From Galerina marginata (Eukaryota > Basidiomycota > Agaricomycetes > Agaricales > Galerinaceae), in the NCBI GenBank assembly GCA_023014335.1, contig JAECYW010000003.1, forward strand, positions 2,294,001-2,358,000: 64,000 nucleotides of DNA, read 5' to 3'. Under the pieces are notes generated by a model, which saw only the letters and a list, made by a program, of their open reading frames with translations, was not told the origin of the DNA and did not search any database. The position numbers and the translations under genes were made by a program. This document shows positions 1 to 22,639 of the stretch, one piece after another; positions within the stretch are counted from its first letter, which is position 1, and the number at the start of each line of letters is the position of its first letter.

Positions 1-1698
1 ATAGTTTCTAGAGCAGGATTGTTATAAGCTTTGAGAGCTCCACTTTTGATCTGTCCTTTGAGTTCTCGCATAAGATCTGTATATAAAGTATCCATCGCGT
101 TTTCATCTGTCAAAAGATCAAGCTGAATAAATAGTAAGTATATATAAAAATTGAAATAAGTATTGACTGACATTAAATATTCGATTGATCCTCATTTCTG
201 CAGGATTTGCTTCATTTAAAGCAAAAGCTAGCCACTGTTTGTAGGCTATCACAAAATTATCCAGATTCAAGAGAAAATAAACAGAGGATGGATAACTTTG
301 TCGAGGAATGATGTCCGGATTTTCTTTAAAAAAGCGCAACAGCTCTTTTCCAGTTAATTTTTTATTTCCCTTTCGCTAGACATCATTAGATGTTATATTT
401 TATATCAAGAAAAAAAAAGAACAGACTGAAAATACGGGAATTTCATCCTGAGGCATCCATGCCAAAACCTCCTCTTTAGGAATCCAGGAATATACAACCA
501 AACTTAAGGATTCGATAATCTTGTTTCTTCTTAAAAGTGATATGGAAAAAGGAGCTTTGCAGTGAAGAAGCATATAACGGCTGCTCCAAAGTTCAACACT
601 TTTGGGTAGTTCCGAGTCCTAGAAACACCAATTAATTAGATTCTAAATTTAGAAAGATACTTTACCTTAACCGCTTTTCGCCAAGCTGCTTGTTTGTAGA
701 TGCCGCGCCTTACACTTCTCATCTCTCTTAAAACACTGAGCACATTCTGATAATGTTGTTCATTGGTTTCTTGCGATAGAGTGGTGTCCTATAGTTGGAT
801 AGTGTAAATAACTTATATTTATTTTTAAAATTATAAAAGTACCTTTCTAAGGGCGTAAGCTTCATCTAGAAAGGTCTTCCAGCTTAAACATTTCTTTTCC
901 CAAAAGCTTGGATTTTCCTGCAAAATTCCATTCCAAACATCGTGGTTTCGGGAAAGGATAGCCATATTGTTGAAGGCCTCAAAAGTAGTAGAAGATAAGG
1001 ATGGCTGGGGAAAGGTAGTCTTTTCAGATTGATTTGCAATTGGTTGGGGTTGTTTTTGACGTTTTCGAGGGGGTGATTGAGGATCAAAGGAAACAGATCC
1101 TGAATCAAGATCTTCTTCATAGTCAGAATCTTTGTCACTACCATCTCCAGAGACCAGGTTAAATTCAGCTGAATCCTTTTGGGATAGGAAATCATGCTCT
1201 GTGATATCTTCAAGGTAATTCAGTTGATGATGTTGTGGTTGGTTACTTCCAAACTAGCAGAATTTGAGGATAAGATTTTTGGCTGACAAGAGGATCTGAT
1301 CCCATACCTGCTTCTTATCCATAATATGTTGGAGTTGCTCCAGATATTCTATGGCTCTCTCTGGATCATACCTCTGCAAAAACTGGTTTCCAAGAAAGAA
1401 CTGCAAGAGTTCAGACACTGAAAGGTTGTCTACATCCATAGAAATGCTTCTCCTCAGCCAGGTTTTGATAGGTCCAATCTTTGATAATATAGAGTCCTTC
1501 CTCCAATCTAGAGTCCAGCAAGGTACTTACAAATTTAGGTTGATCACCAATATCTGACAACATTTTCATCTCCCAAGACACACTTGTAAATTTATCAACA
1601 GGTTTCTTTTCTAGCTCCACAAAGGAGGCTGCCAATAGGTTACCAAGCTCCTGAGAGAGGGGGGAGATAGGCAGAAGAACAGGGGTCTCACTAGCCAT
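1..1698 (-). CDS. Seven-exon gene of unknown function, 3' end beyond window
   Basis: I do not recognise the family. Reading the minus strand from ATG at 1698, exons are 1698-1531, 1478-1308, 1253-843, 788-666, 618-436, 375-172 and 122-off edge. All introns are about 45-57 nt with GT..AG ends and every junction keeps phase 0. About 460 residues are visible. The start (MASETPVLLP) is followed by a helical region, then an acidic stretch with DSDYEEDLDS and a basic PPRKRQKQP patch that could be a nuclear localisation signal. Later parts are rich in Trp, Leu and Lys (VWNGILQENPSFW, KSVELWSSRYMLLH). The intact splicing and lack of stops argue for a functional gene. It is divergent to the JmjC-like gene and inside the proposed giant Helitron, so may be cargo. 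Confidence 0.7.
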
Positions 1699-1985
1699 GA
1701 TGATGAAGATGAAGGTTAAAGCTAAGGTGCTTAAGTCAAAGTCAAAGGCGACTCATCACCAGTGACTCGTCACCGAATCAGAGTCTATGAATAGAAATAT
1801 TAGGCTTACCGGTTCTGAACTCCTAAAACAATCCTTACAGTCAACTCATGTTACTATACATTAGTCTAGAGTACTTCTAGCAACTATCTTAAGTAAATAT
1901 GCACCAACAGAAATTATCTACTAGGGCCACAGTGGCGAGGGAAGGGAAGACTTCAACATTGATCATCAAAGTCAACCTTTACAAC
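1699..1985. other. Upstream region of the minus-strand gene
   Basis: No coding region is seen. Just upstream of the ATG lies a twice-repeated GACTCrTCACC motif (about 1749-1775). It probably contains the promoter of the minus-strand gene; no clear TATA box was identified. Confidence 0.3.
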
Positions 1986-2119
1986 CTCTACAACGCAGGC
2001 GATGGAGGCAGTGCAACCACCAGGCATATCGTCAGTAGGCGGCGAAGTGAGAGGCATGGTGGGTAACCTTGACGGCGGGTACCACATCGACAAGCAAGAC
2101 CGTCAACCCGCAATGCATG

Positions 2120-2330
2120 GATGGTGGTGACTGAACAGGAGAGGGGTGGTGGGCGAGGGAAGCAGATCAAAGCAAGTTGATCACCGGTGAAACGCGAGAC
2201 CGGCAAGCCGTCCGTCGTGCATTGACCCAAACACATGTTGTTGGCCTGCGAAACATAAATGGAGGCGACAGAACAGGAGAGGAGGGGTGGTGGGCGAGCA
2301 GGCAATCAAAGCGAGTCGACCGCCAGCAAA
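2120..2330. repeat. Degenerate tandem repeat, about 135-bp period
   Basis: The segment GACTGAACAGGAGAGG followed by GGTGGTGGGCGAG at about 2128-2157 recurs as GACAGAACAGGAGAGGAGG and GGTGGTGGGCGAG at about 2267-2300. The flanking GCATTGACC and AATCAAAGC motifs also repeat. Two to three degenerate units are visible. Confidence 0.45.
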
Positions 2331-2935
2331 ACAGTTTGAGTCGAAGCAAGGCAGGGCGGTTAGAATGAGGCAAAGGATGATAGGCGGCAGCGGGGCGACT
2401 GGAAAGTCAAGACCGCCGTCGAGATTGCCGTCTGTGTTGTTAAGGGCGGTGTATATGCAAGACCGCCGTCCATGCATTGACCAAAACGCCAGCAGGATGG
2501 GGTGGTGTGGTTGATGACTCCGGTGAGCTGCGAGTCCCTGAATGCTTTGAGGTCCGAGTCAACGGGAGGGTTGTGAGGGAGCTAGCTAGATATAAGGTAA
2601 GCAGGTTTTCAAAAACGGAAACAAATTAGTACAGACCTAACGAACACAGTGTTTCATGTACAGGATGGCGTGTGCAATTCATACCGCCGCAAGAAGAACC
2701 TACGGCGGTTTCAGCATGAGCATGGGCGGTCAAGCTGGGTTGGGAAAGTAAGTAAGTATTCAAACATGAAGACAATGTAGTATGGGGTACGTACAGTCAA
2801 CATCAGCCAGGATGACGACCCGATGGGGGTCGGCTAGCAGTGAACCCCCTGCCGAGTTTGGTTTCAGGTGCTTGATACTTTCTCCACCACAGAGTCAGGC
2901 GCGGCGGCTTCGAGGTAACGGCTCTTCGGCCTCCT

Positions 2936-3996
2936 TCAGTCCTCCCGGAACTGATGAGCATTTCGCATGCCTCGTGGCGGTATCCCGGCGACGAACACGG
3001 AACTTGATGGGGAAGGTGGATGGGGAAGGTGGATGACGACCTGAGCATGAATAAAGGTAAGAAAACAAGTATTTAATACATTTAGGAGTTGGTACTTACC
3101 CGGTAATCTGGATAACAGCTCGATATTCGGCATTCGCAGATCGTCATCGAGCCCTTGAAGGTTTGACACTGATATAAAAGTTGTGGGGTGGCTAGGAAGA
3201 AGATAAGTCAGCTTTTAAACGTGAATGCAACAGATTTTTACTTACATTTAACACCTCCTACTATCCTGCATCCCTCATACCCTCCGCTCAGTATTCCGAC
3301 GACGACCCTCATTCGTGTCCTTGACGGTGGGATAGGGAATTGAACCCAGTCAACCGGTAGCAAAGCGCGGTTCGGGGCGAGACCAGGCAAGGCGAGAGCA
3401 GCGGTGGACTGCAGACCGAGGCGAGTCGATGGCCATGGTGCCGCTTCCATGCTTAGCAAGGCGAGAGTAGGGTGGGTGGGGGTGCAAAACCATGAAGCGA
3501 GGGAGTCGAGGTCAACGAGGTGATGAAGCGTCGTCCACGGTTCAGAGGCGGGTGATGGCGCTGTGCCACGTAGTGGATACGGTGCATGTGCGAGCGAGCG
3601 AGCGAGCGAGTCCGCGCCAGGCCTCCTCAAGGCTCTCCTTAACTCACTGAAAATCAATATTAAGAATTGAATCTAAAGGTAAAGTAGAGAAACAACATAC
3701 CTGGCAGGTAGCGCCGCGGGAGACAGGTGCGTGGGGTTCTTGGTGCTGAGGCGAGAGCGAGGCGAGTGGGAGGGAGGCGGCGGCGGGACGCGTGTTGAGG
3801 GGTTGGTGTAGCACCGAAGTGTCCGAGCGTGTGTATCCACGCCAGGAATCTAGGGGGTGGTTGAATAAGAGGACAGAAAAGTAAAGAAAAAACATGCACG
3901 TACCTCAAGAATCCACGAAACCGTCGCGCAGAGAACCGGTGAACACCGATAGAGGCGACATCGGATGGCCGTCACAGCCAGAGCCTTACGCCTCAT
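2936..3996 (-). CDS. Five-exon orphan ORF, 279 codons, low complexity
   Basis: From ATG at 3996 the exons are 3996-3904, 3849-3701, 3646-3246, 3191-3100 and 3040-2936; the four introns are 54, 54, 54 and 59 nt with GTACGT, GTATGT, GTAAGT and GTAAGT donors. Exon lengths sum to 840 nt with a TGA end, so the frame closes. The product starts MRRKALAVTAIRC and is rich in Arg, Pro, Ser and Leu, with no domain I recognise. High GC makes long open frames easy to get, so the spliced structure is more convincing than the protein. It may be a captured gene fragment or a non-coding transcript. Confidence 0.35.
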
Positions 3997-4530
3997 CGGG
4001 TTCGCAGAAAGGAAGCTGCAAAAAAAAGACGGCGTGGCATCCCCCCATGAGTGAGGTGCACTATCGACCCATCCGGACGGACTCGCGTGAGGAAAGAGAA
4101 GAGGCAGGCGAGGGTTATAAACCAACGCGAAGTGTCACACGACGCGTGACATCAGGTGAGGAGACCCGGCCCACATCTTGAGAGGAGGGGCTCACGGGCA
4201 GGGCGAGGGCGGGTGGTGGTTGGGGTTGAAGGCGATGTTGAACTTGCCACGTCAAGTCAATGTGTCATGTGATCAAAATTGTCAGGTGCTCGCTCAGATC
4301 ACACACATCAAAGCGCGTCGCGTCGCGTTTCGCTTGTTGATCACACACAGGGCATCTGAGAGACTCTTATGTAGTGATTTATTTACCATTTATCTTTTGG
4401 CTTAGATATACATATTGGAAACCATATATATTATTAACTACAGTAGGGACAAATACAATATCTCCTCATCTACCATTGTAAACCAGCTTCAAGCCTCTGT
4501 GGAGGCTTGGTGGATGGGCCGTAAGTCCCG

Positions 4531-4880
4531 GTGCTGTGAAAGAATGGGAGGAAAGGTCAAGGGAGGTTCGATGCACAGGCTTCAGGTGCCAGAATGCAAG
4601 TGCGCCAGCCTGGCGGTGGCGAATGGGTGCCGCGGGTGCGAAACAACGGGCGGGCAAGGTCGCGATAGGCTCGATGCACTGGCGTCGAGTCCCAGATGCT
4701 CGGGCGTGAGCATGGCGGTCGCGAATCGTCGCCGCGGGTGTGAAAGATGGACGGGCAAGGTGGCGGGAGGATTTATGAATGGGCGCCGGGTCCCAGAATG
4801 CGGGCTTTACGCACGAGCGTCGGGTCCCAGATGCGGCATGGGCCTAGCAGTCGTGAATGACTGCCGCGCGCGTGACGGGA
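4531..4880. repeat. GC-rich tandem repeat, about 102-105 bp units
   Basis: Units begin near 4531, 4636, 4738 and about 4869. Each opens with a GTGyGAAA-like motif and contains CGGGCAAGGT-like, TCCCAGATGC-like and GCCGCGGGTG-like segments. The first three spacings are about 105 and 102 bp, then about 131 bp. The reading frame through them repeats a peptide pattern, but I see no known protein. Confidence 0.5.
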
Positions 4881-6169
4881 TGGGAGTGCGCGGCCACGGG
4901 AGACGCAAAGCCCGGGCGTCGGGTTCGCGAATGCGAGGGTGTGGGCATGGGGTCCGGGCGGTCGTGAAGCAGAGGAGGTGAGCGGTACCGTGTTGCGAAA
5001 AGGCGGGGGCTTTAGCCAGTTGCTGCCCGTCGTCGTCGATGTTGCGGGTGTTGGCGACGGCATCGCGTATCAGTTGGGCCAATGGGTGGTTAGGGAGTGG
5101 TTAGGGAGTGGGTTATGGGGACGATGCAGCGGAGGGTGCTTACCTGGTGCCTTTTTCCTTATATCCTGCTGCTGTTGTCCCCACTTCCTAGGCCCGCCGT
5201 AACGCGGGACGCGAGCCAAAGCCGGTTTGTGCTGTTATCGTCCCCATTTCGAGTCACCGTCGTCGTTGTGCCTCCGCTGGGGCACAACGTGTTCGCCCGC
5301 CATCACACACCATGCTGACGGCGTATGATGGTGTGGTCGCGGTTGCGGTCGCAGCACCACATGCGATGGCGGGTGACTGAGTTGGGTGGGGGTAGATGCA
5401 CCGCCATCATTATCAGCGATGGCGGTCGGCTAGCAGGAAAGGCGGCGGAGGGCTCCCAGTACGTCGAGCTGCGAGTCGGCCCACATACCTCCAAGGGCGA
5501 GGGGCACACAACTCGAGCGGTGCAGCTTGTCGTTGCTGTTGTCGAGGTGGGTAAGGTGGGAAAGGCGGGCAAGGCGATGGCATTTGGGGCCCGGGGATCC
5601 TGCGCGGCGAGGTGAGGGGCAGAAGTGGGAGAGACACGGAGCAGAGATTCGAGAAATCATGGAAATGATGTCTCTAATTCTCCACGGTGGCGTGACATGG
5701 CGAAGCGGTCCGGAGATCACGTGGGGTTCGAATTTGAACTTCGGTTGAAGTTCAAGTTCGAACCTCACCTTGACCACCCACCACCATCTCACAGGCCCAG
5801 CACCGCAGCCACCGAACACCGCCAGGAGCGCCGGGAACCGCGACCGCACTACCAACACACCAGGTACGTAGCCAGCACCAATGCAACGTTGGTACTAGCT
5901 AACGCCCTCCACTGTCCCACAGGCCCAGCACCTACAGCCAACGAGGACTGCCAGGACGCCAGATATCACCACCTCCGCTCTGCCATAGCAAATGGCATCG
6001 AGCGTGGAGGATGCCTCCACCTCCGCCTCTGCCCTAAGACGTGGGCGCCGGCTTCTGCTCCCCCCACGTTGACCCATACGCCCCTCCTCCAAGAGATGTG
6101 GGCAGCTCTCGAACACTCGCCAACCCAACCCAATCACCATCCGTAGGCCGGCGAATACGAGTCGGAGAA

Positions 6170-6370
6170 TACGAGGCAGCGAAGGAGGCGACGAGGGCAG
6201 GCGGCGCAATGCAACCGCCCCTTCCCATCATTCTACGAAGCAGCGAGGCGAGTGGCAGGAAGCCGCCATCCCTTGTCGTTGTTCGACGGGGCAGCGAGGC
6301 GGGCGACTGCCTTCACTCGTCGTCGTTTCGACAGGGAAGCGAGGCGGGGGGTGGAAGACCCCATCCGGGT
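6170..6370. repeat. Short degenerate repeats around GCAGCGAGGCG
   Basis: AGCGAGGCG-type motifs recur at about 6177, 6241, 6292 and 6337, at about 50-65 bp spacing, within GC-rich sequence. Probably a degenerate minisatellite; nothing is known of its role. Confidence 0.35.
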
Positions 6371-7965
6371 TTGGACGTCCTCAGGCTGCTGCGATGTGGG
6401 TGACGCCGCCGCCGCCCCACCTTCTCCTCCTCCTCGAACGGCATTGACGCCGTCAACACCGACCCCACCGCCTCTGCCTGTCCGGACGATGACGTCCTTA
6501 ACGCCACCCACTACGTCCGTCCCACCGTTTCACCACCACCACACCCCTCAAACCACGTCGACGTGGATGACGCACGCCCACCACCACCGTCTCCTTGACC
6601 GACGTCAAGCACCATCACCACCGCCATCGCAAACGAGGTCGACATGTCGCAGCCCACCATATCCGCCTCTGCAAACGGCGTCAATATGCACCAACGCGGA
6701 CAGACCACCACCTCCTCAGTCGGCGAGCACGAAGGTTCGGGGATGACAAGGCGACTGCAAAGGACTGAGGATGAGGGGGAAATCCTGAAGGACCAGAAGG
6801 CGAATACGAAGGGTCGATGATGACGAGGAGGACCGTATTTCACACCAGCGCTCGTCGAACGAGGGGTCTAGTCGCACCCTATTTGCATGCGGGTACGTTC
6901 TCCCTCCACTTACATCGCGCCGTGCTGACATCCCCGCGCTCTCCTCGCATTCGCCTTTCCTCCCTCCGCAGCCTTCCTCCTGCATCCCATGTTCCAATGC
7001 CCCATTATGAACACAAGAACAACGGCGGGACGACTGAAATAGTCGAGACCGCTCTCCATGCGGCAGCGGCGGCACCTGTAATCCCCCCCGCTGGTGTCTC
7101 GACTTCCCATCTCCGCTGTAGGTGGTGTACGCACTGGTGAGTGCCCACCTCCCAAACTTTAAACCCCCTTATTAACGGTGCCCCTCCTCTCCAGATGTGG
7201 GCCGGGCTTGCCCATCTCCTCAGTCAGCGCCGAGGTCAATGACGCATGCCCACCGCGTCCCTCTCCCTCCTCTATTGTTGTCAATGCGGATTCCGCTGCC
7301 TCACCACCTGCAACATCCTCGAACAGCGTCAACGTGCCCAACCACCACCTTCACCCTCTCGAACAACGCCCAGCACCTCTACCTCCACAAATGGCGTCGA
7401 CACGCACGATGCGCAGGACACAAACACACCACCTCCGCTTTCCCAACCGTCGTCAACGTGAACGACGCCGCCTCACCACCGCCTCCCCACCTCAGCACCA
7501 CGTTCCTCACGAGGCGTCAACGTGGAGACAGCGCAGTAGCAGCATTGCAGCTGCTGTTGCTCGGATATGAGGAAGGGAGGGAGACGAATTTTCGTCTCCT
7601 TCACCTACCCACACCCGATTTGCTCTCGTCTCCCCATGCCTGCCTCCCTCGGTTTTCCCTGCTCTTCGCCACCTCAAGCCTCTCTGGACACCTCATGCCT
7701 GCCCGCCCCGCTGCTCATGCGTTGGCCCCCTATGCCCTCGCCCTCATCGTTTAGTGGTCACCTCCTGGCCTGCTTCCTCCTACGACCAACCTGTTTTGCA
7801 CCTGCTCTCCAACTCCCTGCACCTCCAGAACTGAAGTGTAGTGTAACTTAGTTATTAGTTTTTAGAATTAGAATTAGTTAGATATCAATAATAAACTATA
7901 TTATATCAAAGTCTTTTTTGGTGTGGTTTATGACCTGACCGAGGGGAGTGGCGGGCCGGAGCATG

Positions 7966-7993
7966 CCGGAGCACAGTCGCGACTCTGCTCCGG
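7966..7993. repeat. Solo imperfect 28-bp palindrome centred on TCGCGA
   Basis: CCGGAGCACAGTCG is followed by its inverse with one mismatch. The same palindrome, perfect, caps both arms of the foldback at 59183-59893. It lies about 115 bp upstream of the JmjC-like ATG and could be a remnant of that foldback family or part of the promoter. Confidence 0.6.
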
Positions 7994-8106
7994 CCCGGAT
8001 ATTCCGGGTGCCACACCGCCACCTGCCAGACGTATGGCGTGTGTTCACGTTGGTTGGTTGGTTGGTTTTGCCTCTTACCTTCCTGCTTCTTTTCTTGACG
8101 ATACCT

Positions 8107-11100
8107 ATGCAATCAACTTCTTCTGCACCTGTTTCTCAGGGTATTTCAACTCTATTGCTTAACTAAAATGGCTCCTAATTCCTTTATTGTTTAGGTCAAA
8201 CCAACCATTCCTATTCACCTAGGGTGGACTCCTTGCTGCTCGCTGCTTACCCCTGGAACACAGATAGCCTGACTGAGCCTAGTCTCTCTGATGTTTTTGA
8301 AGGACAAGGCTCTTTAAATAGATCTTTGAGGGTATGTTTCAGTCTAGAAGATCTAAAGCTTGGATTTTCTCTGATGTTTGCTTTGGTAGCGTCTAGCGCG
8401 AACTCTTGACAGTTTTGAAATCAACTTCAACGAACATTTGATTACAGGGGATGCCCTTCTTCGCCGCCATCTTCTTATACAGGATTCCAATTCTGCTGTC
8501 ACCACTCCTAGCCAGGCCTTGATAGTTTATAAAAGCGGAGGGCGTAAAACTGTCAAAGTCTATAACGATATCGTCAATTTGCTCTGTTTATACCGGATCT
8601 TAGACATCGGTGCAAAGTTGCTGGAGCGCCAATGTAATGTTCCGGTTCCACAGCACCGCAAACCCACCTTGCCTAAATTGACCTTTAGAGTGAGTTTCCC
8701 TTGTATTTTTCCTGAGTTGTATTCTGAATATTTACAGAAAAACTTGCTGAATGACTGTCAAACTATTCTCCAAGCTGCGCGCGTGAATTTTCAGAGCCAA
8801 GCTCAGCTGGAGCAACCTTATTCCCCGGATAACGTCCACGTAAACTCCATGCAGTTCCTAGGTCGTCTGGCAAAGACCGCAAGTGGGTTTCAAACCCTAT
8901 GGAACCTACAACTTGCAGCTATGCACTTGAGACACCTTTTGACTACCGAGTACACCTCAAAAAAGGCTATACCAGATCTTCCAGAAGATCTGCAGGACTT
9001 GTTTTTTCCTTCAGAGACGTAAGTAAATTTATATTTATATACAAGTCACTTTTGATCTTCAACTCTACCTCTATAGCGTCAATAATGCTTTAACGGAAGA
9101 GGAAAAGGAATTGTTCAACAAGGTTGCGGTGGACACCCAACCTGCAGGCTTTCGGCTACCCCTCCAGATAGCCTTGCTGGTATCACCAATTTTTTTACTT
9201 AGTAGCCACAAGCTGGTTTCGGCGGTATGGGACAAAGAAGAACTGCTTTGTGTAAGCATTTAACTTCAAATCCACCCTTGAAGCTATATTCTCACAAGAA
9301 AATTCAAGTTTTCCAAGGCTTTGGGAAATCAAAAGCCTGAAGTCATATCCAGCGTCGAGAAGATGATCTGGACAGCTCTATTCGATATAGCGGAAGGTTC
9401 TACACAACCTTATCTAGCTATGCGACGCCTGGTTACAGAATTACCTTGGACGGACATTGAAGATATGACCGCTTCAGAGATTGAATGGTTTAAACCTGGT
9501 ATTATTGATCTACTCTATGAACTTTTGATTATACACTAATGTTTCTTCATCTTAAGAATCCGTTAATGCAGAGTTGCCCGCCACTGGTCATAACTTTATT
9601 GTTGGCTCCGTTTCACCAAACTGGCCTATGGCATCAGTTCTACGGCCTCTACTTCCTGGCCCTATTGCCAGTGGATCTGAGCAAAGGCATAATGAAAACC
9701 AAGATGGAGAAGAAGATGCTGAACATGATGCAGATCCTGATTCTGAGGTGCCCGCGCCTGCGCCTGAGCCCGCGCCTGCTCCTGAGCCCATGCCTGCTCC
9801 TGAGCCAGAAGGTAAATTTATACTCATCTAAATGTCTCTAGATTTAACCTTAGATTATATAGAATCTACTGGAGATGCACCTGCAGGGCCTGCTGACCAG
9901 TCAGCTCTAGGAGCTGATGGTAAGTAAACCAATATTCTTTTATATGTCACTAGCTTTAACTTTACTTTCTATAGATCTTCCTGAAACTGCGGATAAGGAC
10001 CCTGCAGCTCCTGCTGATCCACCGGCGTCGCATCCTGAGGGTAAATTTAAATTTCATTTGAAGGTTGTTGATACTAAGTCTAGTCTTATTTAGAGCTGGG
10101 GAGGAAATTGCGTGAGCGCGGTAAAAAACGCCCTCTCCCAGAGCCTATTGTCAAGAAGAACCCTAAGCAGAAGAACCCCAAACGCAATACTCAGTCTAAA
10201 GGAAAGGGAAAAGGAAAAGAAAAACGCAAACCGGAACTGCTCACTTACATGCCTATTCCACTTTTCAATTTGGATGAGGATCAAAAGACGTATGTTCCCC
10301 AGGAGGAGATCGAGATGTCATTTCCTGAAGCTAAATTGGATGTGGTTACAAATCCACCCGAGGTAAGAATATATTTACCTTTAAGCTACTTTTACTAAAT
10401 CCTCTGAGATAGAGAGTCAAGATGTATGATGAAGAGAAGTCTGAAGATGTCAACGACGCAGTTCTTTATGATGCTTTTGGCCGGCCCACTATTGTCCATC
10501 CAACCTTTCACGTAAGTCTCATTTCCGGTAATATGACCTAAGATATCTGACTATGGAATTATCACTTCAGAACAAAACTGACGCTCAGAACTTTTATGGG
10601 CTTCTCAAAGCTGTGGAGTCTTGTTATGTCAATGGCAAGCCTCGACACACGCAGAAAGGAGTCTATAGTAACTTCCTTATCATGGATGAAAAGGAGTACA
10701 AGGAATTGGAGCCCGAAGCTGTCCAGGATCGAGTTCGCCACAAACAGCTAGTTCTGACTAATTGCGAGATGTCAGACATTGAATTTACCCAGCGCTCTCT
10801 CAGCACCATAGGCTCTCTCTCCTCACCACTTTGTATCCACGGTAAGCTCAATGATCTTTCTGGTTGAACAAGTACTAACTATTTGTTAGATCATTCGGTC
10901 GTTAGCAAGAATCCTAACGATTGTCATCACACCGGAAACCTGCAGCAGATCCTGGATTGCATTGACCAGGGTGATAAAGGTAAAATCTTGAACGTCTTGG
11001 ACATTCCCAACACCACCGCTCCTCTTCCAATTACCGGGTACTCTTCTGAGCTTATAGCTTGGAATGCTACTGGCTCTGATCTTTTCTGCCATCGCCAAAC

Positions 11101-12662
11101 CGAGCACTTCCCTAATGGTGATATGTCGTGGTATCTCATTGGTCTTAGCGGCGCCTTACATCTTGGCCACATTGATAGTGATGGCCAGGGTACTGTTATT
11201 GAGGTCAGGAACCGCGACGGCGCCAAGTTTTGGATGAAGGCCACAAGGAAAGAACTTGCCAAGATCAGTGAAAACCCAGAAGCAGATCGAGCCGCGGCTT
11301 TATTGGAGCTAGCAAACGTCAATCTCTTTCTTCAATTCCCTTTGGAGTTACCCAATTTGGATTACTGGATTTTGGAAGGCATATTGTTGACTCACAAAAC
11401 TCGCCTGTAAGTTTTTCTCTATTTAGCTATAACTTGTTTATTGACCCCAGATTTCTAGGGTAATGGGTCCTGACTGCCCTCACTGGGTTTATACCCCATT
11501 TCACACTATCTGCTCGGGTGGTCACTATATAGCTTCCTCAACTATCCAGGATACAATGATTGGTCTCATTCACGCTTTCATGTTGGATAGCTACATTTCC
11601 AACACCAACCATACGCCCACTCGCATCCTGCTTTGCCGGCTTGCCTCGCTTTATTATCAAGGTTTGGTAAAGAAGAAGTATAAGCGATATGGTTAGCCTT
11701 TCAGTTTATATTTTTTTCTCTGCTTAATATCATTTTAATTACAGAGGTCACGCATGCCCACCTTTTTGATTTTGAAAGCTTTGCTTCCGTCCTTGACCTG
11801 ATGGCCTTCTGCAATCTTATTATTTTCATCAACGTCCTCGACTTCCAAACCTACATGTTCAACAAATATATCGCGGTCAATGATATCAAGCACCTCTCTC
11901 AAGAACGTCTCGCAGCTATCGAAGCCTTTGACCACAACTCGGTTCCTCCAAAGGATCGCATGCGCTATCAAAATGCTAGAGGCCAGGCTTACGCTCTTAT
12001 CGACTGGCTTTTTAAGGCGGTTGATATCATCGATCTTCAAACCAAGCAGCCTGTCGAGGATCCTCGTACTTCTTTATGGATCCCATATATTGCTCAGCAG
12101 GCTTCAGCTCTTCTCGTTTACAAGAACAAAGCCGAGCAGGATAAACTCAAAGGTGCCAAAGGATGTACACCAGCAACTCTTAAGCGTCAGATCCTGCTTT
12201 GTTTTCAGGAGTCCTATCTTGAAGAGCCTGTGAATGCTGCTATTGAAGCTAAATGTGAAGTTTTCACATTCTTGGAGCCACATAGGTATAAGGCCACACT
12301 ACGAGATGATTTGAAGTCTGCTTTACGTGAGTCCATACTATCTTTTTATATTTAAATTATATTGATAAGTTGTATTTCTAGTCCGACGCGATCCTTTCAA
12401 GTGGGGTGCAACTGAAGGTGATAGAAAGTTTCACTTGGGTGATATCAAAGGGTGGTCACTTTCACCTGAAGCTATGGAAGAGGCTTACTTGACCGCTCGC
12501 GATATGGAACCTGAGCAGCCAGTGGATCAAGATGCGCAAGAGCAAGAGCCAGAGCCAGAGGAAGAGGAAGAGCCAGAGGTACCTGTAAGACCTTCAAAGC
12601 GCCGCAAGACAAACATCATACCTTCCCCTCCAGCCTCACATTCCGTATCGCCTGAAGTATAG
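8107..12662 (+). CDS. JmjC-like (cupin-fold dioxygenase-like) protein, 15 exons, 1264 aa
   Basis: Exons: 8107-8140, 8195-8331, 8390-9018, 9077-9251, 9309-9498, 9557-9811, 9863-9919, 9975-10040, 10094-10362, 10413-10511, 10571-10841, 10890-11406, 11459-11691, 11745-12326, 12382-12662. They sum to 3795 nt and all phases close, which supports the model and the ATG at 8107. The first third has no domain I know. Exons 6-9 are acidic/proline (PAPAPEPAPAPE) then strongly basic (KGKGKGKEKRK). Near residue 821 is HLGHIDSDGQGT, a candidate HxD iron-binding pair, and near 922 GGHY, the candidate distal His, in the context (WYLIGLSGALH, CSGGHYIASSTIQDT) typical of fungal JmjC-like proteins. JmjC enzymes are Fe(II)/2-oxoglutarate dioxygenases, many of them histone demethylases; the substrate here is unknown. 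The tail has a KRRK nuclear signal. Same strand as the helicase, 170 bp upstream. Confidence 0.72.
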
Positions 12663-12832
12663 CTACCGCATTTGTATTATCACGACTTGTATATAATTTT
12701 CTTTGTTTGACAATTATTTATACATGACATCAGATCCAAACAAACAAATATCAACCAAAGTTGAAAGTTGAACTTTGGACGTCCATCCTTCTTGCTCCTT
12801 ACCACCACCTATCAACTCTATCTCCAGCTCCA

Positions 12833-15800
12833 ATGAAGTTATTCCTTGTCTTATTAGTCTTCTTTTCTCTTATACCAAGAGAGCTCAATCAAATTAGCTT
12901 TCTATCTCGCTCTTTGCAAAGCTTGGCTTTAGGTATGCCTTTAATACCCTTTGAGTTCTCAAAACTGACCCTTTTGACTTTAAAAGCTGACACCTTATTC
13001 TTGCAAGAGACTACTTGCTTTTATGACACACATGATATTCAAACCTCATCTGGCATTTTTGGCATTGGCATTCCGCGTCATACTTTTGATATTTCTGACA
13101 TTAGCATTCAACGTACACCTAATATTTCTGGCATCCAACTTAAACTTGTCCAACACATATTTGATATATCTACAACCAAGATCCTTTATAAATGGAATAT
13201 CTCTGATAATGACATTGGTTACCTAGTTAGCAAATTCAAAGCTTACAGTCTCTACATGCCTATATTTAATGCATTTGTAGAATATATTTATTTGACCAGC
13301 TGTTCTCTAAACAAGCTATTGTCCTATGTATATATGGCTTCATTAGAGTCTAATATCTTTTATCAGATCCACAGAGCATATCTACAACTTATCAGAAATC
13401 TTCTATTAAAACATGAATATTCAAACTTTATGAGGCTTAACACTAAATCTTCTCAGTTGGCCCTGCATCAGCTGGCTTTATTTACTTACGACGTATCTCC
13501 AATATTAGTATCTTCTGCAATTCAGACTTTTGTTTTGGCTAGAATTCCAATGCTTTATCTACATGAAGAGAAAGTATCTATGCAGTGGTGGTATAATTAT
13601 CAACAACCTCTATCAAATTTCTGTACAGTTAGTTCTTGTTCCAAACATTTTATAAACCAGTTAAAATGTTTAACAGCACATAATTGGGATGGAAGTGATT
13701 GTATTCTTCAACCTGATAACTCTGCTTTCTTTGGGGCTGGTACTAATAAAACTCTAACATACGCTGCTATTTCAAAATATATTCTTTTTCAAAGTACACC
13801 AATCACTCAAGATAATACAGAATTAAAATTTAAAAGCCATATGCCATTTAAGAAAGCATTGGATAAATATACTAATAAGAAAGATGTTTTTTTAGCACGC
13901 GTACCTTTGGAACTGTTATGTGATAAAATTACTGTAAGTCAAGCCCGCGCTATTGCAAAATGTCATGATATTGGAAAAGTAAGCAAGCACACTTTACCAG
14001 CATTAATGACTGTATTATCTTCTCATCAATGTGTTGGAAACTGTACTGGCTTTTGTACTATTTTTGTACTTCCACCATCTACCTTAACAGCAGCTGCTGA
14101 ACGTCAAAGTAAATGGTATGACAAACTTGATAAAATTGAAAAAGCCAATCTTATCGCCAATAAAATAACTCAAAAAAACTTGAAGAAACAGAAAGATATG
14201 CTCCACTTCAAAAAAAAAAATAAAGTATTTCCTCCTCAGCCACCATCTAAAAGTCTTCTTCATAAAATCATTTCAGGCTTTATACAGTATACAAGTCCTT
14301 CTCAATTTGTAGAAGCAGGCTGTGCAGTTTGTGGAAGATTAACACCATTCAAAAATCTGATACCTTTAGGTGAAATAAAGAATAAATTAAAGATATTAGT
14401 AAATCCAGGTATTACTCGCAAAGAAAGAAAAACTCCTGAAGATCCTATTTCTGATATTACTGGTCCAATTATTGATTCAAAATGTACTCATGCATGTAAA
14501 ACCTGTTGTGCTAGTTTGAAGAAAAACAAAATACCCTCATTTGCTTTAGCTTCAGGTTTTTGGGTCGGTGAAATACCAGATGTGCTTAAAAATCTGACTT
14601 ATGTAGAAAAGCTTTTAATTGCACGTGTAAGACACAACAGATGCATAGTCAAAGTGGCATCAGGTAGATATAAAATGAGAGCCAATGCTATTACCTTTCA
14701 AAATCCAGTCCCAAAAATATATGATGTTTTACCACCTCCTGTAAAAGAGCTTGATGAAGTTCTTGCATTTATATTTACTGGACCTTGCAGACCCACCAAA
14801 GATGATATTAAACGCACTCCTTTACTTGTCCGTCGCAACCATGTAGCTAATGCTTTAAATTGGCTTAAATTAAATCATGCTGATTATTCTGATGTTGGTA
14901 TCTCAAAAGACAACTTAATGCAATATCCTGAAAGTGACTGTCCTGTTGTTATTGACTATAGGGAGTCTATTATAAATAAAGATCCAGAAGCCACTAGTGT
15001 ACATGATAATGAAGAAGAAGATGGTGTAGAATCAGGTCCTTGCTCATTTACTGTTCAAGGTCTTACAGGACAAGAGTTTTCAGAGCTTTCTATTGATACT
15101 ATAAAAGCCAAAGCTTTGGAACATCTTATGAGCAATGGAAAAATTTTATTTGCAGGCCATTCTGAAAAACCTTGCTCAATATTTAAAAATCCTCAGTTGT
15201 TTCCTTCTATGCTTCCATGGCTTTTTCCATATGGTCATGGTGGTATAGGTCAATCAATAATGAACAAAATCCATTCACCTTTGGTCCAGAAAAGACATTT
15301 ATTAATGTACCATGATAAAAGGTTTCAAACTGATCCTAATTTTCCTTTGATTGCATTTAATCATGAACAAATTTCTCAAAGCACCAGTCGAGGAAGATTA
15401 GTAGTACAGAGATCTTATTTTTCTGAAATGGCTAATCGCCTATTAAACCTTAATCATTCAGTGTTATCTAATATTAGCAAGCGCCTCTCTCTTGGTGAGC
15501 GTGTAAAACCTGAAACTGAAGAAGAAAAACTATGCTATAAAGTCATACAAGATTTGGATACAATTGGCGGTCATGTTGAAGGTTCTTTGGCAGGTAAAAA
15601 GTCTATGCGCAATGAAATATGGTCTTTGATTTCCTATATAGGTGCTCCTTCTTGGTTTATTACACTTTCTCCTGCAGATAGTAAACATCCAATCTGTCTT
15701 TATTTTGCGGATAAGGATATTGAGTTCAAACCTGAGATTTGCCTGCCTGATGAAGCTTACCGCCTTGTTGCTCAAAACCCTGTGGCAGCTGCAAGATTCT

Positions 15801-18800
15801 TTCATTTTATGTGTGAAACCTTTATTAAACATGTATTGGGTGTTGGCAATAACTCTCCAGGCTTGTATGGTAAAACAAATGCTTATTATGGAACAGTTGA
15901 ACAACAAGGTCGTCTAACTTTGCATCTACATCTTCTATTATGGATTAAAAATTCACTTTCACCTCAGGAGATCAGAGATCGCATCATGGATACTACTTCT
16001 GACTTTCAAAAACAAATGGTTGAATATTTGGAGAGTGTTCACCAAGGTGAATTATTAAATGAAAAGCCATTGGCTGATATCCTTGCATCTTTTAAATCTA
16101 AGCAAGAACAGACTGGTTATTCAGATCCAACAAAAACAATGCCAAAACCTCCACCTGAGTTATGTAAATCAAAAAGCTGTACAGATTGTTCCAAATGCAA
16201 GGAATTAAATGAATGGTGGATCAAATTTGAAGAAGAGACCAATGATATACTTGCAAGATCTAATAGACATGACTGTAGAACTGATATTGAAACCAAAGAT
16301 GGTAGATCTGTAAGAAAAGGCTGCAAAAATAGCAAAGGTGAATGTAAAGCAAGATTTCCTAGAGATATTGTTGAGAACACAATGGTTGAACCTCTTACAG
16401 GTGCTCTAAAATTGAAAAAAGGTGAAAGTTGGATGAATACATTTACACCAGCTCTGTCTTATCTTATTAGAGCAAATACAGATGTAACAAGTCTTTTGTC
16501 TGGAACTTCAGTCAAAGCTGTTGTTGCTTATGTTACAGATTATGTTACTAAACCAGGTCTTACAACTTATTCGATTTTTGATACTGTGCGCCAAATATTC
16601 TCTAAAAATTCAGAGTTACTAGGTGGTAGCAGTAGTCGGCAAGAAACTGCTAGAGCTTTAATGACTAAAATGGTCAACTCACTTACATCTAAAATGGAAA
16701 TAGGAAGTCCAATGGCATCTTTATATCTATTAGGAAATCCAGATCATTATACTCAGCACAAATTTATAAAGTTTTACTGGAGACTCTATGTCCGCAAAGC
16801 CAGAGATGCATGGGGTGATAATGATAAAGAAGAAAGTCCAGAAAAAGTTGTTCTTGATAAGAATCTTGGAGACTATGTTGGTCTTTCTAAAGTTGATGAT
16901 TATATTTATCGCCCAAACATACACAAAAATATCACTTTATATGAATGGATTCGCAGATCAGAATCTACAAGGCGCTCAAAAAAGAACTTGAAAAAATTTG
17001 ACTCCTTGCAAGATATACTTAATGGACAGCTTGATAATATTGAAGAAGAAGAATTAAATGAGGAACTGGATTCAAATGATGAGCTAGATATTATTTCACA
17101 AGTTGGTGGTGGCAAATCCAGCCAGTCAGATGATGAATTAAATATTCAAAATAGTACTATCAATAAACCTGCTGAAACAAGTCTTAATATAAAGTATAAC
17201 TTCTTACCTGGTCATCCTCTGTATAGAACACATGAGGTAGTTTATAAAACCAATGATCCCTTAGTAGTTCCAGTGTTTTTAGGTGGCATTCTTCCTAGAA
17301 GTGATCAAGGTGATAGAGAATATTATTGTTCAACAATGTTAACACTTTTTAAACCATGGAGAACTGGAAGAGATCTTAAGCTTGAAAATCAAACCTGGGA
17401 TGAAGCTTTTAATGCTTTCAAATTTGCTAAACATCAAAACCAGTTGATGAAGAATTTCAATTTAAGATATGAATGCAATGATGCCAGAGATGATTATTCT
17501 GCTAAATTGAAAAAAGGTGCAGCTCAAAAGAATAGTATATTTGGATCTTGGATTGATAATGAACAAACTTTTAATGAACTAGATCAGACAGCATTGGACT
17601 ATACAGATGATGGTCCACTAGCATCTTTTGATAATGATCAAGACATGTCTGAACTTCTTATCAATGATGCAGCTAAAACTGAAGAAATGGCTCAGATTGA
17701 AAAAGTAGTTCAAAATATAGGCTGGCTAGATAGCTCCAAAGACAATACTATAAAACCTGATAGCACCTTTAAACCTACTGAGAATTTCAATAGCAGTGAA
17801 TGGAATTCTATAGTTGATGCTGCTAAAAAAGATGTCATTGCTCAAAGAATGAAGGATCTGCCATCAGGTATTAATAAATCTACTGATAACCATGAGTCTC
17901 ATGATGAAGTTGTAGTATCAGATATATCATATATTAATAAGGATTTCCAGGCTGAAAAATTGAATGAACAGAAATTCATTGATGATACTGTTAGTAAATT
18001 TAGTTTGAATACAGAACAAGAGCGTGCATTCCGCATTGTGGCTAATCATGCAACCCTTCATAAAACTGAACCTCTTAAAATGTATCTAGGTGGAATGGGT
18101 GGAACTGGTAAATCTCAGGTTATTAAAGCTTTAATTGCTTTTTTTGAACTAAGAAAAGAAAAACATCGCATCATGATTCTGGCTCCTACTGGTTCAGCAG
18201 CTGCTTTACTCAAAGGATCTACATATCATTCAGCTCTAGGTATTCAAACTGAGGCAATGAAAAAAAATGAACAGACCAATTTAGCTCAGGTTTATACTAG
18301 ACTTGAAGGTGTTGAATATATTTTTCTTGATGAAGTTTCAATGTTATCATGTCTTGATCTTTATAAAATCAGTGCTCAGCTTGCTAAACTTAAAAATATT
18401 GTTGATAATCCATTTGGTGGTATGAATATGATTTTTGCTGGAGATTTTGCTCAACTAGCACCTGTTAAAGGTGCTTCTCTTTACAGTGGAGGAGTTGGTA
18501 CTACAATTAATGCTGCTATGACAGAACCTGGCCAGCAAACTGCAATAGGCAAAGCTTTATGGCATCAGATAACTACAGTTGTGATTTTGCGACAAAACAT
18601 GAGACAAAGATTCCAATCTCCTGCAGATACTAAACTTCGCACTGCTTTAGAAAATATGCGCTATGCAGCCTGTACAGCTTCTGATATTCAGTTTCTCAGA
18701 ACAAGAATAGCTGGAAAAAGAAAAGATCAGCCCAATATTGCTAGTTCATTATTCCGCAATGTCTCAATCATTCTAGGTTTAAATTCTGAAAAGGACAAAA

Positions 18801-20713
18801 TCAATGATCTGGGATGTCAGAGATTTGCAAAAGACACTGGTCAGACTTTAACTGATTTTTATTCTGTAGATACTATTGGTGAAAGTGTTCCACCTGAAAC
18901 ACTTAGACTTTTAAAGAGAAAAAATCCTCAAGCTAAAACAATCAGAAAAAAACAAGTTTCTCTTCCTTCAAAACTTCAAAATATTCTATGGAATATGAGA
19001 TATTCAATGACTGAAACTGTTCCTGGAAAATTGTCTTTATGTTTTGGAATGCCAGTTATGATCCGCAATAATGATGCTACAGAATTATGTATCACACGTG
19101 GTCAAGAAGCTCATGTTGTAGGCTGGCAAGCTTCAAAAGGTGCTGAAAATCATTTGGTTCTTGATGTTTTATTTGTCAAACTTGATTCACCAGCTAAGAC
19201 AATTCAACTCAAAGGTCTTCCTCAAAATGTTGTTCCTTTAACTCGCTCTAGCAAGAGTGTTCTTTGTTCAGGTTTAAAATCCCCTATTTCAATTAATAGA
19301 TCTCAAGTTTCTGTGCTTCCAAATTTTGCAATGACTGATTATGCTTCACAAGGAAAAACAAGAGAATACAATGTTGTAAATTTGAATAGTTGTAGAAGTC
19401 ATATGGCTTATTACACTGCATTATCTAGAGGTTCAACTGCTGAAGGCACAATTATTCTTCAAGGCTTTGATGATCATAAAATTACATGTGGTATATCTGG
19501 TTATCTAAGACAAGAATTCAGAGAACTTGAGTTATTAGATGAGATTACTAGACTCAAATATCTTGATCAACTTCCTACTTCAATTACTGGAAATCTTAGA
19601 AATATTATAATAAGACAGTATCAACAAATCAAAGGCACAGGTTATTGTCCACCTTGTATAGATAAAGCACTACAATGGTCTAAAGAAAAGCCAATGGAAA
19701 ATACAGCAGCTGTTAAAGATAGTCCATGGACTATTATCAATAAGAAGCCTGTGGTTTCAAAAGCTAAAACTTTTGTTGCACAACATTTTCAGCCTGCCAA
19801 AGGTTCAATCCCAGTTAAAGTAAACAATTTAAAGAGAAAAATAGAGGATACTGAAATACCTATAGTTCCATTAGAGGCTAAGAAAATAATTAAGACCAAA
19901 AAACCCAAAATTACTTCTGATATTGAACTTCAAGGCTTAAAATGGGATTCAGTCAATTATAGCTGTTCTTATGACTCATTATTTACAATATTGTTCAATT
20001 TATGGTCTCAAAACAAAAAACAATGGACCAAAGAGCTTAGTCAATATGGAGAATTTACACAAACTTTGGTAAAGGGATATAAAAATGTTCAAACTGGATC
20101 TCAAACATTATCTGCAGTTAGAGATTTGGTTAGACATGAATTAAAAACATCTCAACCAGATAAATTCCCTATAGGGCATACAGGAACTGATATCCGTGAT
20201 CTTTTACAATCAATGTTCCAAAAGCCCAATCAGAAAGATATCAGTTATGAAAAGTGCAGTGATTGTAATTATGAAGCAAGTTCTCAAATTCAATCTCAAT
20301 CTTTGATATTTATTACATGTTCTTCACATAAATCTACTCAGTCAAACTTTAAACACTGGCAAAACCAAAAGAAATATTGTGGACTATGTACTAAAAAAGT
20401 TTGTATCACAAGATATTTTACAATTTCACCAAGTTTTATATGTTTTAGTTTGGAGGTTAAAAAGATTATAAGTAAATATATTAAAATTGAAAACCAAGAC
20501 AAGAGTATAACTAGATTATCATTAAAAGGTATTATATATAGTGGAAGCAATCATTTTACATCAAGATTTATAGTTAATAATGAAATCTGGTACCATGATG
20601 GTATTTCTACTGGTGCTAAATGTATAAAAGAAGGACAGTTAGATGATTTTGAAGGAGATTTATTATTTAAGTGCAAAAAGAAAGAAGCAGTGGTTGTTAT
20701 ATATGGAGTATGA
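12833..20713 (+). CDS. Helitron transposase: Rep (HUH-Y2) + Pif1-like helicase + C-terminal cysteine-peptidase-like domain
   Basis: One uninterrupted frame of about 2626 codons from ATG 12833; the frame is open to 12761, but without ATG. Residue numbers count from 12761. The N-terminal 400 residues are unrecognised. About 500-750 resembles fungal DUF6570, with zinc-type Cys/His pairs. About 940-1270 is the Helitron-like Rep domain: HUH-type LTLHLHLLLWI near 1053 and paired tyrosines in AYVTDYVTK near 1256. About 1750-2270 is a Pif1/RecD-like SF1 helicase: Walker A GGMGGTGKS near 1778, Walker B FLDEVSML near 1855, then FAGDFAQLAPV and TDYASQGKT. About 2390-2640 has NYSCSYDSLFTILFNLW, SNHFTSRFI and WYHDG, a Cys/His arrangement of ubiquitin-protease type. 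It nicks and unwinds DNA for rolling-circle transposition. No stop or frameshift, so it may be active. AT-rich, unlike its cargo. Confidence 0.9.
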   Translation: MKLFLVLLVFFSLIPRELNQISFLSRSLQSLALGMPLIPFEFSKLTLLTLKADTLFLQETTCFYDTHDIQTSSGIFGIGIPRHTFDISDISIQRTPNISGIQLKLVQHIFDISTTKILYKWNISDNDIGYLVSKFKAYSLYMPIFNAFVEYIYLTSCSLNKLLSYVYMASLESNIFYQIHRAYLQLIRNLLLKHEYSNFMRLNTKSSQLALHQLALFTYDVSPILVSSAIQTFVLARIPMLYLHEEKVSMQWWYNYQQPLSNFCTVSSCSKHFINQLKCLTAHNWDGSDCILQPDNSAFFGAGTNKTLTYAAISKYILFQSTPITQDNTELKFKSHMPFKKALDKYTNKKDVFLARVPLELLCDKITVSQARAIAKCHDIGKVSKHTLPALMTVLSSHQCVGNCTGFCTIFVLPPSTLTAAAERQSKWYDKLDKIEKANLIANKITQKNLKKQKDMLHFKKKNKVFPPQPPSKSLLHKIISGFIQYTSPSQFVEAGCAVCGRLTPFKNLIPLGEIKNKLKILVNPGITRKERKTPEDPISDITGPIIDSKCTHACKTCCASLKKNKIPSFALASGFWVGEIPDVLKNLTYVEKLLIARVRHNRCIVKVASGRYKMRANAITFQNPVPKIYDVLPPPVKELDEVLAFIFTGPCRPTKDDIKRTPLLVRRNHVANALNWLKLNHADYSDVGISKDNLMQYPESDCPVVIDYRESIINKDPEATSVHDNEEEDGVESGPCSFTVQGLTGQEFSELSIDTIKAKALEHLMSNGKILFAGHSEKPCSIFKNPQLFPSMLPWLFPYGHGGIGQSIMNKIHSPLVQKRHLLMYHDKRFQTDPNFPLIAFNHEQISQSTSRGRLVVQRSYFSEMANRLLNLNHSVLSNISKRLSLGERVKPETEEEKLCYKVIQDLDTIGGHVEGSLAGKKSMRNEIWSLISYIGAPSWFITLSPADSKHPICLYFADKDIEFKPEICLPDEAYRLVAQNPVAAARFFHFMCETFIKHVLGVGNNSPGLYGKTNAYYGTVEQQGRLTLHLHLLLWIKNSLSPQEIRDRIMDTTSDFQKQMVEYLESVHQGELLNEKPLADILASFKSKQEQTGYSDPTKTMPKPPPELCKSKSCTDCSKCKELNEWWIKFEEETNDILARSNRHDCRTDIETKDGRSVRKGCKNSKGECKARFPRDIVENTMVEPLTGALKLKKGESWMNTFTPALSYLIRANTDVTSLLSGTSVKAVVAYVTDYVTKPGLTTYSIFDTVRQIFSKNSELLGGSSSRQETARALMTKMVNSLTSKMEIGSPMASLYLLGNPDHYTQHKFIKFYWRLYVRKARDAWGDNDKEESPEKVVLDKNLGDYVGLSKVDDYIYRPNIHKNITLYEWIRRSESTRRSKKNLKKFDSLQDILNGQLDNIEEEELNEELDSNDELDIISQVGGGKSSQSDDELNIQNSTINKPAETSLNIKYNFLPGHPLYRTHEVVYKTNDPLVVPVFLGGILPRSDQGDREYYCSTMLTLFKPWRTGRDLKLENQTWDEAFNAFKFAKHQNQLMKNFNLRYECNDARDDYSAKLKKGAAQKNSIFGSWIDNEQTFNELDQTALDYTDDGPLASFDNDQDMSELLINDAAKTEEMAQIEKVVQNIGWLDSSKDNTIKPDSTFKPTENFNSSEWNSIVDAAKKDVIAQRMKDLPSGINKSTDNHESHDEVVVSDISYINKDFQAEKLNEQKFIDDTVSKFSLNTEQERAFRIVANHATLHKTEPLKMYLGGMGGTGKSQVIKALIAFFELRKEKHRIMILAPTGSAAALLKGSTYHSALGIQTEAMKKNEQTNLAQVYTRLEGVEYIFLDEVSMLSCLDLYKISAQLAKLKNIVDNPFGGMNMIFAGDFAQLAPVKGASLYSGGVGTTINAAMTEPGQQTAIGKALWHQITTVVILRQNMRQRFQSPADTKLRTALENMRYAACTASDIQFLRTRIAGKRKDQPNIASSLFRNVSIILGLNSEKDKINDLGCQRFAKDTGQTLTDFYSVDTIGESVPPETLRLLKRKNPQAKTIRKKQVSLPSKLQNILWNMRYSMTETVPGKLSLCFGMPVMIRNNDATELCITRGQEAHVVGWQASKGAENHLVLDVLFVKLDSPAKTIQLKGLPQNVVPLTRSSKSVLCSGLKSPISINRSQVSVLPNFAMTDYASQGKTREYNVVNLNSCRSHMAYYTALSRGSTAEGTIILQGFDDHKITCGISGYLRQEFRELELLDEITRLKYLDQLPTSITGNLRNIIIRQYQQIKGTGYCPPCIDKALQWSKEKPMENTAAVKDSPWTIINKKPVVSKAKTFVAQHFQPAKGSIPVKVNNLKRKIEDTEIPIVPLEAKKIIKTKKPKITSDIELQGLKWDSVNYSCSYDSLFTILFNLWSQNKKQWTKELSQYGEFTQTLVKGYKNVQTGSQTLSAVRDLVRHELKTSQPDKFPIGHTGTDIRDLLQSMFQKPNQKDISYEKCSDCNYEASSQIQSQSLIFITCSSHKSTQSNFKHWQNQKKYCGLCTKKVCITRYFTISPSFICFSLEVKKIISKYIKIENQDKSITRLSLKGIIYSGSNHFTSRFIVNNEIWYHDGISTGAKCIKEGQLDDFEGDLLFKCKKKEAVVVIYGV

Positions 20714-20870
20714 ATTGATAATAATTATACAGAGCTGATAATATACTGGTAGTTTGTAGAGTAATTAGTTTAATTGCTAATTAGCTTTTTTCTAACTAAT
20801 GTAGTTTAATTCAAACAGTTAAAAAAGTATTGGTAACAAGTGTACTATTATGAATAAGAAGCAGCAAAGA
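20714..20870 (+). other. 3' untranslated part of the large Helitron
   Basis: AT-rich sequence between the helicase stop and the terminal structure. It contains GTTTAATTGC-TAATTAGC and other short inverted segments but no gene. Confidence 0.4.
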
Positions 20871-20873
20871 AAA

Positions 20874-20915
20874 AGAACTCGTTTTTGCCATGCGAAGCAA
20901 TGGCCTCTAAACAAG
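20874..20915 (+). other. Helitron 3' terminus with hairpin
   Basis: GAACTCGTTTTTGCC leads into a GCCAT...ATGGC hairpin (20887-20904), followed by CTCTAAACAAG. The layout of a short hairpin about 11 nt from the 3' end is that of Helitrons; the last bases are CAAG instead of CTRR. It closely matches the short elements' end (GCCATGCGCAGCAATGGC, CTCTGACCAAG). Confidence 0.8.
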
Positions 20916-21393
20916 TCTGAAGGAGGGATTGGACCTCCCCCGACCGACGCAACCCGGGAGAAGGTATCAAGGCCTCTCTGAGCGATGAGCCCGCGCGGAA
21001 CGCCTTACCCAATGCCTTGCGGTGCTGCCGCTTGGCGGGCGAAGGAGAAAGCTTCCTGATTCTCCAGCAAAAAAATCAACAAACCGTGCAACCGGTCGGT
21101 CGGGGATTGTCTATTGTACCGCGGACAGTACTTTAGGATGTGTGAGCGGGTCTCACGAGGAGCACCGCAGCGGGGGCAGCCATGAGGCTCTTGGATGTTA
21201 AATCGGTCGTAGTACGAGCCGATTGGCGCATGATTCAGTATACACCTGCACAAGTGCGCGAAGGAGGCGGCATCGCCTCCGGATTCGCGAATATAAGGCC
21301 CACCCTTGCGAGTGGCCGGACGGATGGGACGCGGTTTCTTGCCCAGCGTTGAAAGCTGGAGGAAGTCGCGACCCAGATGCTGTGGACGGTCTG
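20916..21393 (-). mobile_element. LINE fragment a (Tad-like), 3' coding end, 5'-truncated
   Basis: The minus strand encodes the C-terminal zinc-binding end, CRCILNHAPIGSYYDRF then CPRCGAPRETRSH and HILKYCPRY, stopping near 21005. Its 3' remainder is separated off by the large Helitron at 20915. At about 21393 it meets LINE b head to head. Confidence 0.8.
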
Positions 21394-22629: not shown

Positions 22630-22639
22630 CGTAGGAAAT

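Follow-up and report, generated by a model that had tools for sequence, protein, structure and literature searches.

A probable 32.6-kb autonomous Helitron2-type transposon with a conserved multi-gene cargo in Galerina marginata

Beyond the enzyme that they encode, Helitrons usually carry little except gene fragments. Fungal Helitrons have been reported to measure 6-7 up to 14 kb, and full-length host genes in Helitrons have been described as exceptionally rare (PMC6431247). Maize Helitrons reach up to 39 kb and carry up to nine gene fragments (PMC6431247). HELPO1 of Pleurotus ostreatus (6.6-13.7 kb) consists of RepHel and one to four carried genes that are located downstream of RepHel, and capB, one of these cargo genes, has been found with RepHel in other basidiomycetes (PMC4289320). 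TET/JBP genes have been reported from 11 lineages of transposons, among them a Helitron2 of Agaricus bisporus, with escape from methylation-based silencing as their suggested role (Kojima 2025; PMC12730594).

The element described here (E1) occupies C23:2282299-2314915 in an assembly of 69.3 Mb and 43 contigs, and it measures 32,617 bp. The window, which is the whole stretch of 64,000 nucleotides that was analysed (C23:2294001-2358000), holds the right 20,915 bases of E1. Window positions equal E1 positions minus 11702. Judging from the sequence, E1 is with a probability of roughly 0.87 one autonomous rolling-circle transposon of Helitron2 type, about 32.6 kb long, that carries RepHel together with at least six long-travelling genes, most of which are spliced. 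We call E1 a Helitron2 variant that is autonomous, about 33 kb in length and equipped with a multi-gene cargo that has long been conserved.

E1 is similar to Helitron2/FoHeli of Fusarium oxysporum in its asymmetric terminal inverted repeat, end hairpins, RepHel, T-adjacent insertion and short non-autonomous relatives, whereas its terminal sequences are different, its length is far greater and it has at least six conserved cargo genes (PMC5148889). HELPO1 also resides in an agaric host and combines RepHel with carried genes, but the genes of E1 number at least six in about 33 kb, lie upstream of RepHel and have measured constraint (PMC4289320). Large maize Helitrons are of similar length and belong to the rolling-circle family; they carry gene fragments, whereas E1 carries whole genes that are conserved between copies (PMC6431247). 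The Agaricus bisporus element is likewise a Helitron2 in Agaricales with a dioxygenase gene, gene E of E1 being dioxygenase-like by motif only, and the dioxygenase type reported with the Agaricales Helitron has HxE whereas gene E has HxD (PMC12730594). No SET or JmjC cargo was found in the available text of Kojima 2025, which was searched for the word JmjC (PMC12730594). In the open-access literature, no description of a Helitron with the size and the conserved multi-gene load of E1 was found.

The characteristics of E1 and the coordinates of its features are listed in Table 1. The 3' end reads AAGAACTCGTTTTTGCCATGCGAAGCAATGGCCTCTAAACAAG, with ..CAAG as the last bases, and it is followed by T and LINE DNA, so the exact 3' junction with LINE DNA that had been proposed in the preliminary description of this DNA stands. 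The 5' tip was located at C23:2282299 on the same strand as the tail, 11,702 bases to the left of the first base of the window. The preliminary description had expected such a tip, preceded by the other half of the LINE with a flank ending in ACCTCG; the tip and the LINE half are present, and the flank ends in ACCTTG instead. It had also recognised a Helitron2-like element of at least 20.9 kb, and the element itself is upheld with a size that had been underestimated. The 3' arm AAGAACTCG lies 34 bases inside the 3' end and is complementary to CGAGTTCTT of the tip, which gives the asymmetric terminal inverted repeat. Both ends are predicted to fold into hairpins (5' -13.0 and 3' -8.4 kcal/mol with RNA parameters).

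Table 1. Features of E1, with positions in the element and in the window.
Feature	E1 position	Window position	Strand	Basis
E1, right part (left 11,702 bases outside window)		1..20915	+	tip, tail, flanks, empty sites, length
Gene A	1773-3958		-	home-made spliced model
Gene B	4148-5389		-	home-made spliced model
Gene C	about 6900-8500		+	home-made spliced model
Gene D, predicted SET domain	8759-10028		-	SET E=6.1e-13
Gene E, dioxygenase-like	10265-13400	1..1698 (part in window)	-	home-made spliced model, dN/dS, Galerina homologues
GC-rich block between genes E and F		1800..7950	.	poorly or not alignable among three copies
Gene F, multi-exon, JmjC-like by motif only	19809-24364	8107..12662	+	models, genomic copies, dN/dS, homologue
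Gene G, RepHel, 2,626 aa	24535-32415	12833..20713	+	intact frame
3' tail		20714..20915	+	28 full genomic copies, 92-100% identity
AAGAACTCG, 3' arm of asymmetric terminal inverted repeat		20873..20881	+	pairs with tip ..CGAGTTCTT
3' terminal hairpin GCCATGCGAAGCAATGGC		20887..20904	+	fold
Target T		20916	+	LINE sequence after

The flanks of E1 were joined for the search of empty sites, using 151 bases on the left that included the first base of the tip and 150 bases on the right of the tail (301 bases in total). All 40 scored matches, from 95 candidates, cross the junction at 89-97% identity and are uninterrupted LINE copies, and the best of them spans positions 1-301 of the join. The second copy tested (E2, C39:655868-686592, 30,725 bp) gave five matches with its joined flanks, comprising three uninterrupted sites at 100% identity and two that are the own flanks of the filled site. 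Empty sites were tested for these two copies, and upstream flanks were read for three. Because the empty sites close over the whole block, the 32.6 kb entered as one insertion, and the genes and the GC-rich block upstream of the helicase lie inside the element as the preliminary description had claimed. The join counted T twice, and the best empty sites are shorter than it by one base; the element is thus TTAC..CAAG inserted before T or, as an equivalent reading, TAC..CAAG plus a duplication of a single base. The insertion is T-adjacent and is not accompanied by a multi-base target duplication, as in Helitron2.

The RepHel frame is open, as had been claimed. The protein of gene G has five Pfam matches, which include DUF6570, Helitron_like_N (8.8e-35) and PIF1 (1.9e-25), and these provide the protein feature of Helitron2. 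From known Helitron biology, RepHel would nick at the 5' tip and would then displace one strand as far as the 3' hairpin, and the displaced strand would integrate via a circular intermediate. For FoHeli1, a 3' end joined to a 5' end has been reported (PMC5148889). Two other classes were considered for E1. Canonical Helitron1 needs 5'-TC and 3'-CTRR, and E1 has TTAC.. and ..CAAG. The endonuclease domain of Helentrons is absent among the five Pfam matches of the RepHel protein.

The cargo genes were modelled with a home-made gene finder that scores conservation on both strands, and many antisense models were also called. The strand was picked by long conserved frames and the other models were dropped. 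The exon borders are provisional because the finder scored both strands and the strand was chosen afterwards. Gene A acquired an F-box match at E=0.039, which is below its cut-off, and no other Pfam placement. Genes B and C acquired only weak or low-complexity Pfam matches. For genes A, B and C, neither Pfam nor PDB supports a function. Gene D is a predicted SET-domain protein: the E1 model scores 49.5 bits against a curated cut-off of 22.4, the truncated model of E3 scores 19.5 bits, which is under the cut-off, and the best PDB match is KMT5B (1.6e-6).

Gene E has a total of about 12 exons. Its 5' part, with six complete exons and a portion of another, falls in the window, and the remainder is located to the left. 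The 7-exon gene that had been placed inside the element is rightly placed there and is the visible part of gene E, which is longer and extends past the left edge of the window. The closest proteins of gene E are from Galerina marginata (68-83% identity) and Flammula alnicola (49%), and a profile search adds Laccaria bicolor. No Pfam or PDB match was found for gene E, and two structure predictions of its homologues (mean pLDDT 35 and 46) were unusable for fold search. Its C-terminal end reads TYHCNNYTAPLHKDNDTVPG..YSFIYGDYRKY..NSLWSFSGSTMHGTMLPS in the E3 model. Four host loci belong to the TET/JBP family PF20515, and one of them reads CQDFDNFLHEDNDEIG..GGAFFWGAYKI. A comparison of the gene E profile with the four host sequences aligned the HxD stretch at a score of 21.4, against 12.0 when reversed. 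That score was reached by two of 300 column shuffles, both of them outliers of 5-6 columns, with 19.7 as the next best; the maximum of an earlier run of 200 shuffles was 130.8. By motif only, gene E resembles TET/JBP dioxygenases, which is a lead and not membership.

Gene F contains a motif that we take to be JmjC-like. The gene F proteins that were scanned gave no JmjC match and one FlgE_D2 match under the cut-off, and searches against PDB and families likewise left them unplaced. The nine PF02373 matches in the genome are all located elsewhere than gene F and its relatives. Gene F has 24 close copies in the genome, and its homologue GALMADRAFT_146664 of Galerina marginata is 80% identical over 583 aa. 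This protein and the E-like GALMADRAFT_146658 of the same species are both encoded on a contig of 426,354 bases, and the equal length together with the near locus numbers suggests one contig and a kept E-F pair.

Selection on the cargo was assessed by comparing E1 with E2 and with a third copy that was read whole (E3, C6:1792274-1825605, 33,332 bp), with dN/dS calculated for the chosen strand alone. The ratios for E1 against E2 and E3, respectively, were 0.22 and 0.29 for gene A, 0.10 and 0.13 for gene B, 0.06 and 0.09 for gene C, 0.26 and 0.32 for gene D, and 0.16 and 0.22 for gene E. Gene F was saturated against E2 and gave 0.26 against E3. The cargo ratios are hence 0.06-0.32 in 11 of 12 comparisons, the twelfth being the saturated one, and ratios this low indicate that the cargo has been kept by selection. 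As far as these home-made models allow, the cargo genes are under purifying selection over a long divergence.

The SET, TET-like and JmjC-like proteins could help to keep the element expressed within silenced chromatin, or could assist it in settling there, and the retention of the cargo would thereby be explained. We therefore put forward, tentatively and at slightly less than even odds, that mushrooms hold giant autonomous multi-gene Helitrons with their own chromatin kit (a histone methyltransferase and DNA and histone dioxygenases) by which silencing would be escaped or exploited. Such elements would have a fixed gene set, would be more like an integrative element than a Helitron with random captures, and would have swapped the 3' RepHel module between lineages. 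Alternatively, the cargo might serve the host or be neutral baggage, retained for past help to the host and not for the element. Thirty-three distant relatives of gene F (31-44%) are spread over the genome and form an unplaced host gene family, from which gene F probably came; this would suit such a role. However, the copies of the element were themselves the ones compared, with dS reaching about 2, and their low dN/dS places the constraint in the element lineage. For this reason neutral baggage is improbable, while a benefit to the host is possible, and we consider the alternative as a whole the less likely one. With 33 kb inserted as one unit, elements of this type make the practical length limit of rolling-circle transposition testable. 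Protection of a transposon by chromatin enzymes that it carries itself, and the transport of complete genes by Helitrons, likewise become testable.

The 202-base tail was identified in 28 full copies (92-100% identity) among 40 scored of 561 candidates. The remaining 12 scored candidates match its last 49 bases only, and a second, independent pattern likewise found 28 full tails. T is directly after all 28 full tails. Their downstream flanks are all distinct, which is the pattern expected from separate insertions. The tip form that fits the tail of the helicase element (CGAG) has 84 genomic sites at no more than one mismatch, and the reversed control has none. Within 75 kb upstream, 19 of the 28 tails have a CGAG tip on their own strand, and the other nine are without a tip by that pattern. 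Genes C, D, E and F, the cargo genes that were searched for, are all held by 16 of the 19 tip-tail units, with the expected orientation demanded by the count. The gene order is C-D-E-F in 13 of these 16, and gene D is at the 5' end in the other three (E2 and both copies on C14). Three units are without the full set: the one on C43 has only gene F, and those at C23:2199719 and on C9 have none of the four genes.

The 16 full-set units measure 30.7-72.1 kb, and six of them, E1 included, measure 30.7-35.0 kb. Extra DNA inside copies was directly seen on C4, C12, C43 and C9, and many copies are lengthened or broken in this way; gene D of the copy on C1 is in pieces about 6 kb apart. The three copies that were read whole (30.7, 32.6 and 33.3 kb) have seven genes in common and are collinear except for gene D.

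The 112 CGAG tips and full tails counted are all on 15 of the 43 contigs, and each of these contigs has them confined to one stretch of 52-512 kb. LINE copies share those repeat stretches, which may be centromeres.

A 33-kb composite that seldom moved and that multiplied chiefly through segmental duplication of repeat-rich blocks would fit this confinement to one to a few hundred kilobases per contig, and two copies on C6 are nearly equal in length (33,330 and 33,332). Nevertheless, the 28 distinct downstream flanks, the T beside the end in every case and the clean empty sites of E1 and E2 argue for transposition of E1 as one element, and spread by duplication is very improbable.

The copies also differ in how far their parts have diverged. 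From about window position 14,700 to the end of the element, all three pairs of copies are 0.96-1.00 identical, whereas in gene F the identity of 500-base blocks is 0.49-0.63 when E2 is one of the pair and 0.60-0.90 between E1 and E3. Synonymous divergence between E1 and E2 ranges from 0.6 (gene D) to 2.1 (gene C) in the cargo and is saturated in gene F, against 0.12 in RepHel. The RepHel frames have 2,626 aa in E1, 2,485 aa in E2 (which starts 141 codons later) and 2,608 aa in E3, and dN/dS is 0.21 for E1-E2, 0.23 for E1-E3 and 0.16 for E2-E3. A 3' helicase module of 96-100% identity over far more diverged cargo makes the element a mosaic. The simplest reading of these identities is that lineages with old and different cargo have a young 3' module in common through exchange between copies, and the exchange would have been repeated. 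Given the open RepHel frame and the 96-100% identity of the module in the three copies, the recent activity that had been proposed earlier is plausible.

A normal Helitron of about 8 kb that starts just before the helicase, with the cargo as ordinary neighbouring DNA, would have the usual size of fungal Helitrons with RepHel and tail alone and would match the sharp climb of copy-to-copy nucleotide identity near the helicase start, but it is hardly credible since no tip is present at 12662-12833, two copies have empty sites from which the full length (32.6 kb and 30.7 kb) is absent, and 16 of 19 tip-tail units combine the tail with the same cargo. The search of the window for CGAGTTCTT and the tip pattern found no 5' end at 12662-12833, between the JmjC-like gene and the helicase, in agreement with the preliminary description; CGAGTTCTT occurs in the window at 20873(-), 58756(+) and 58774(-) only, and the tips found by pattern are all to the right of 21900.

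The GC-rich block is located between genes E and F in all three copies that were read. Window positions 4001-7800 of this block have 106 matches (66-94% identity) on many contigs, also outside the repeat blocks. Inverted arms at 4154-4191 and 7180-7217 suggest a putative nested element. A foldback of 705 bp that is 90% self-complementary is nested near the 5' end of the element (L032:9128-9832). The claim that no other transposon interrupts the region is contradicted by the foldback and by the resemblance of the GC-rich block to dispersed repeats.

At C13:1227034-1239069, a sequence distantly related to the SET gene (47%) lies about 11 kb from a match to PF20515. This pair is possibly another element with a similar load.

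Short non-autonomous Helitron2 relatives are densely packed at window positions 21946-61569, and several of them measure about 360 bp from tip to tail. Their tip form is TTAC(A/G)AGTTCTTACGTA(G/A)TAAAAGAACT(T/C)G, and their tail type is the same as that of E1. By pattern, the whole window has 15 tips and 13 tails, with the tail of the helicase element among the latter. Each of the 13 tails has T as its next base, and the 15 tips are preceded by differing bases (10 G, 3 A and 2 T).
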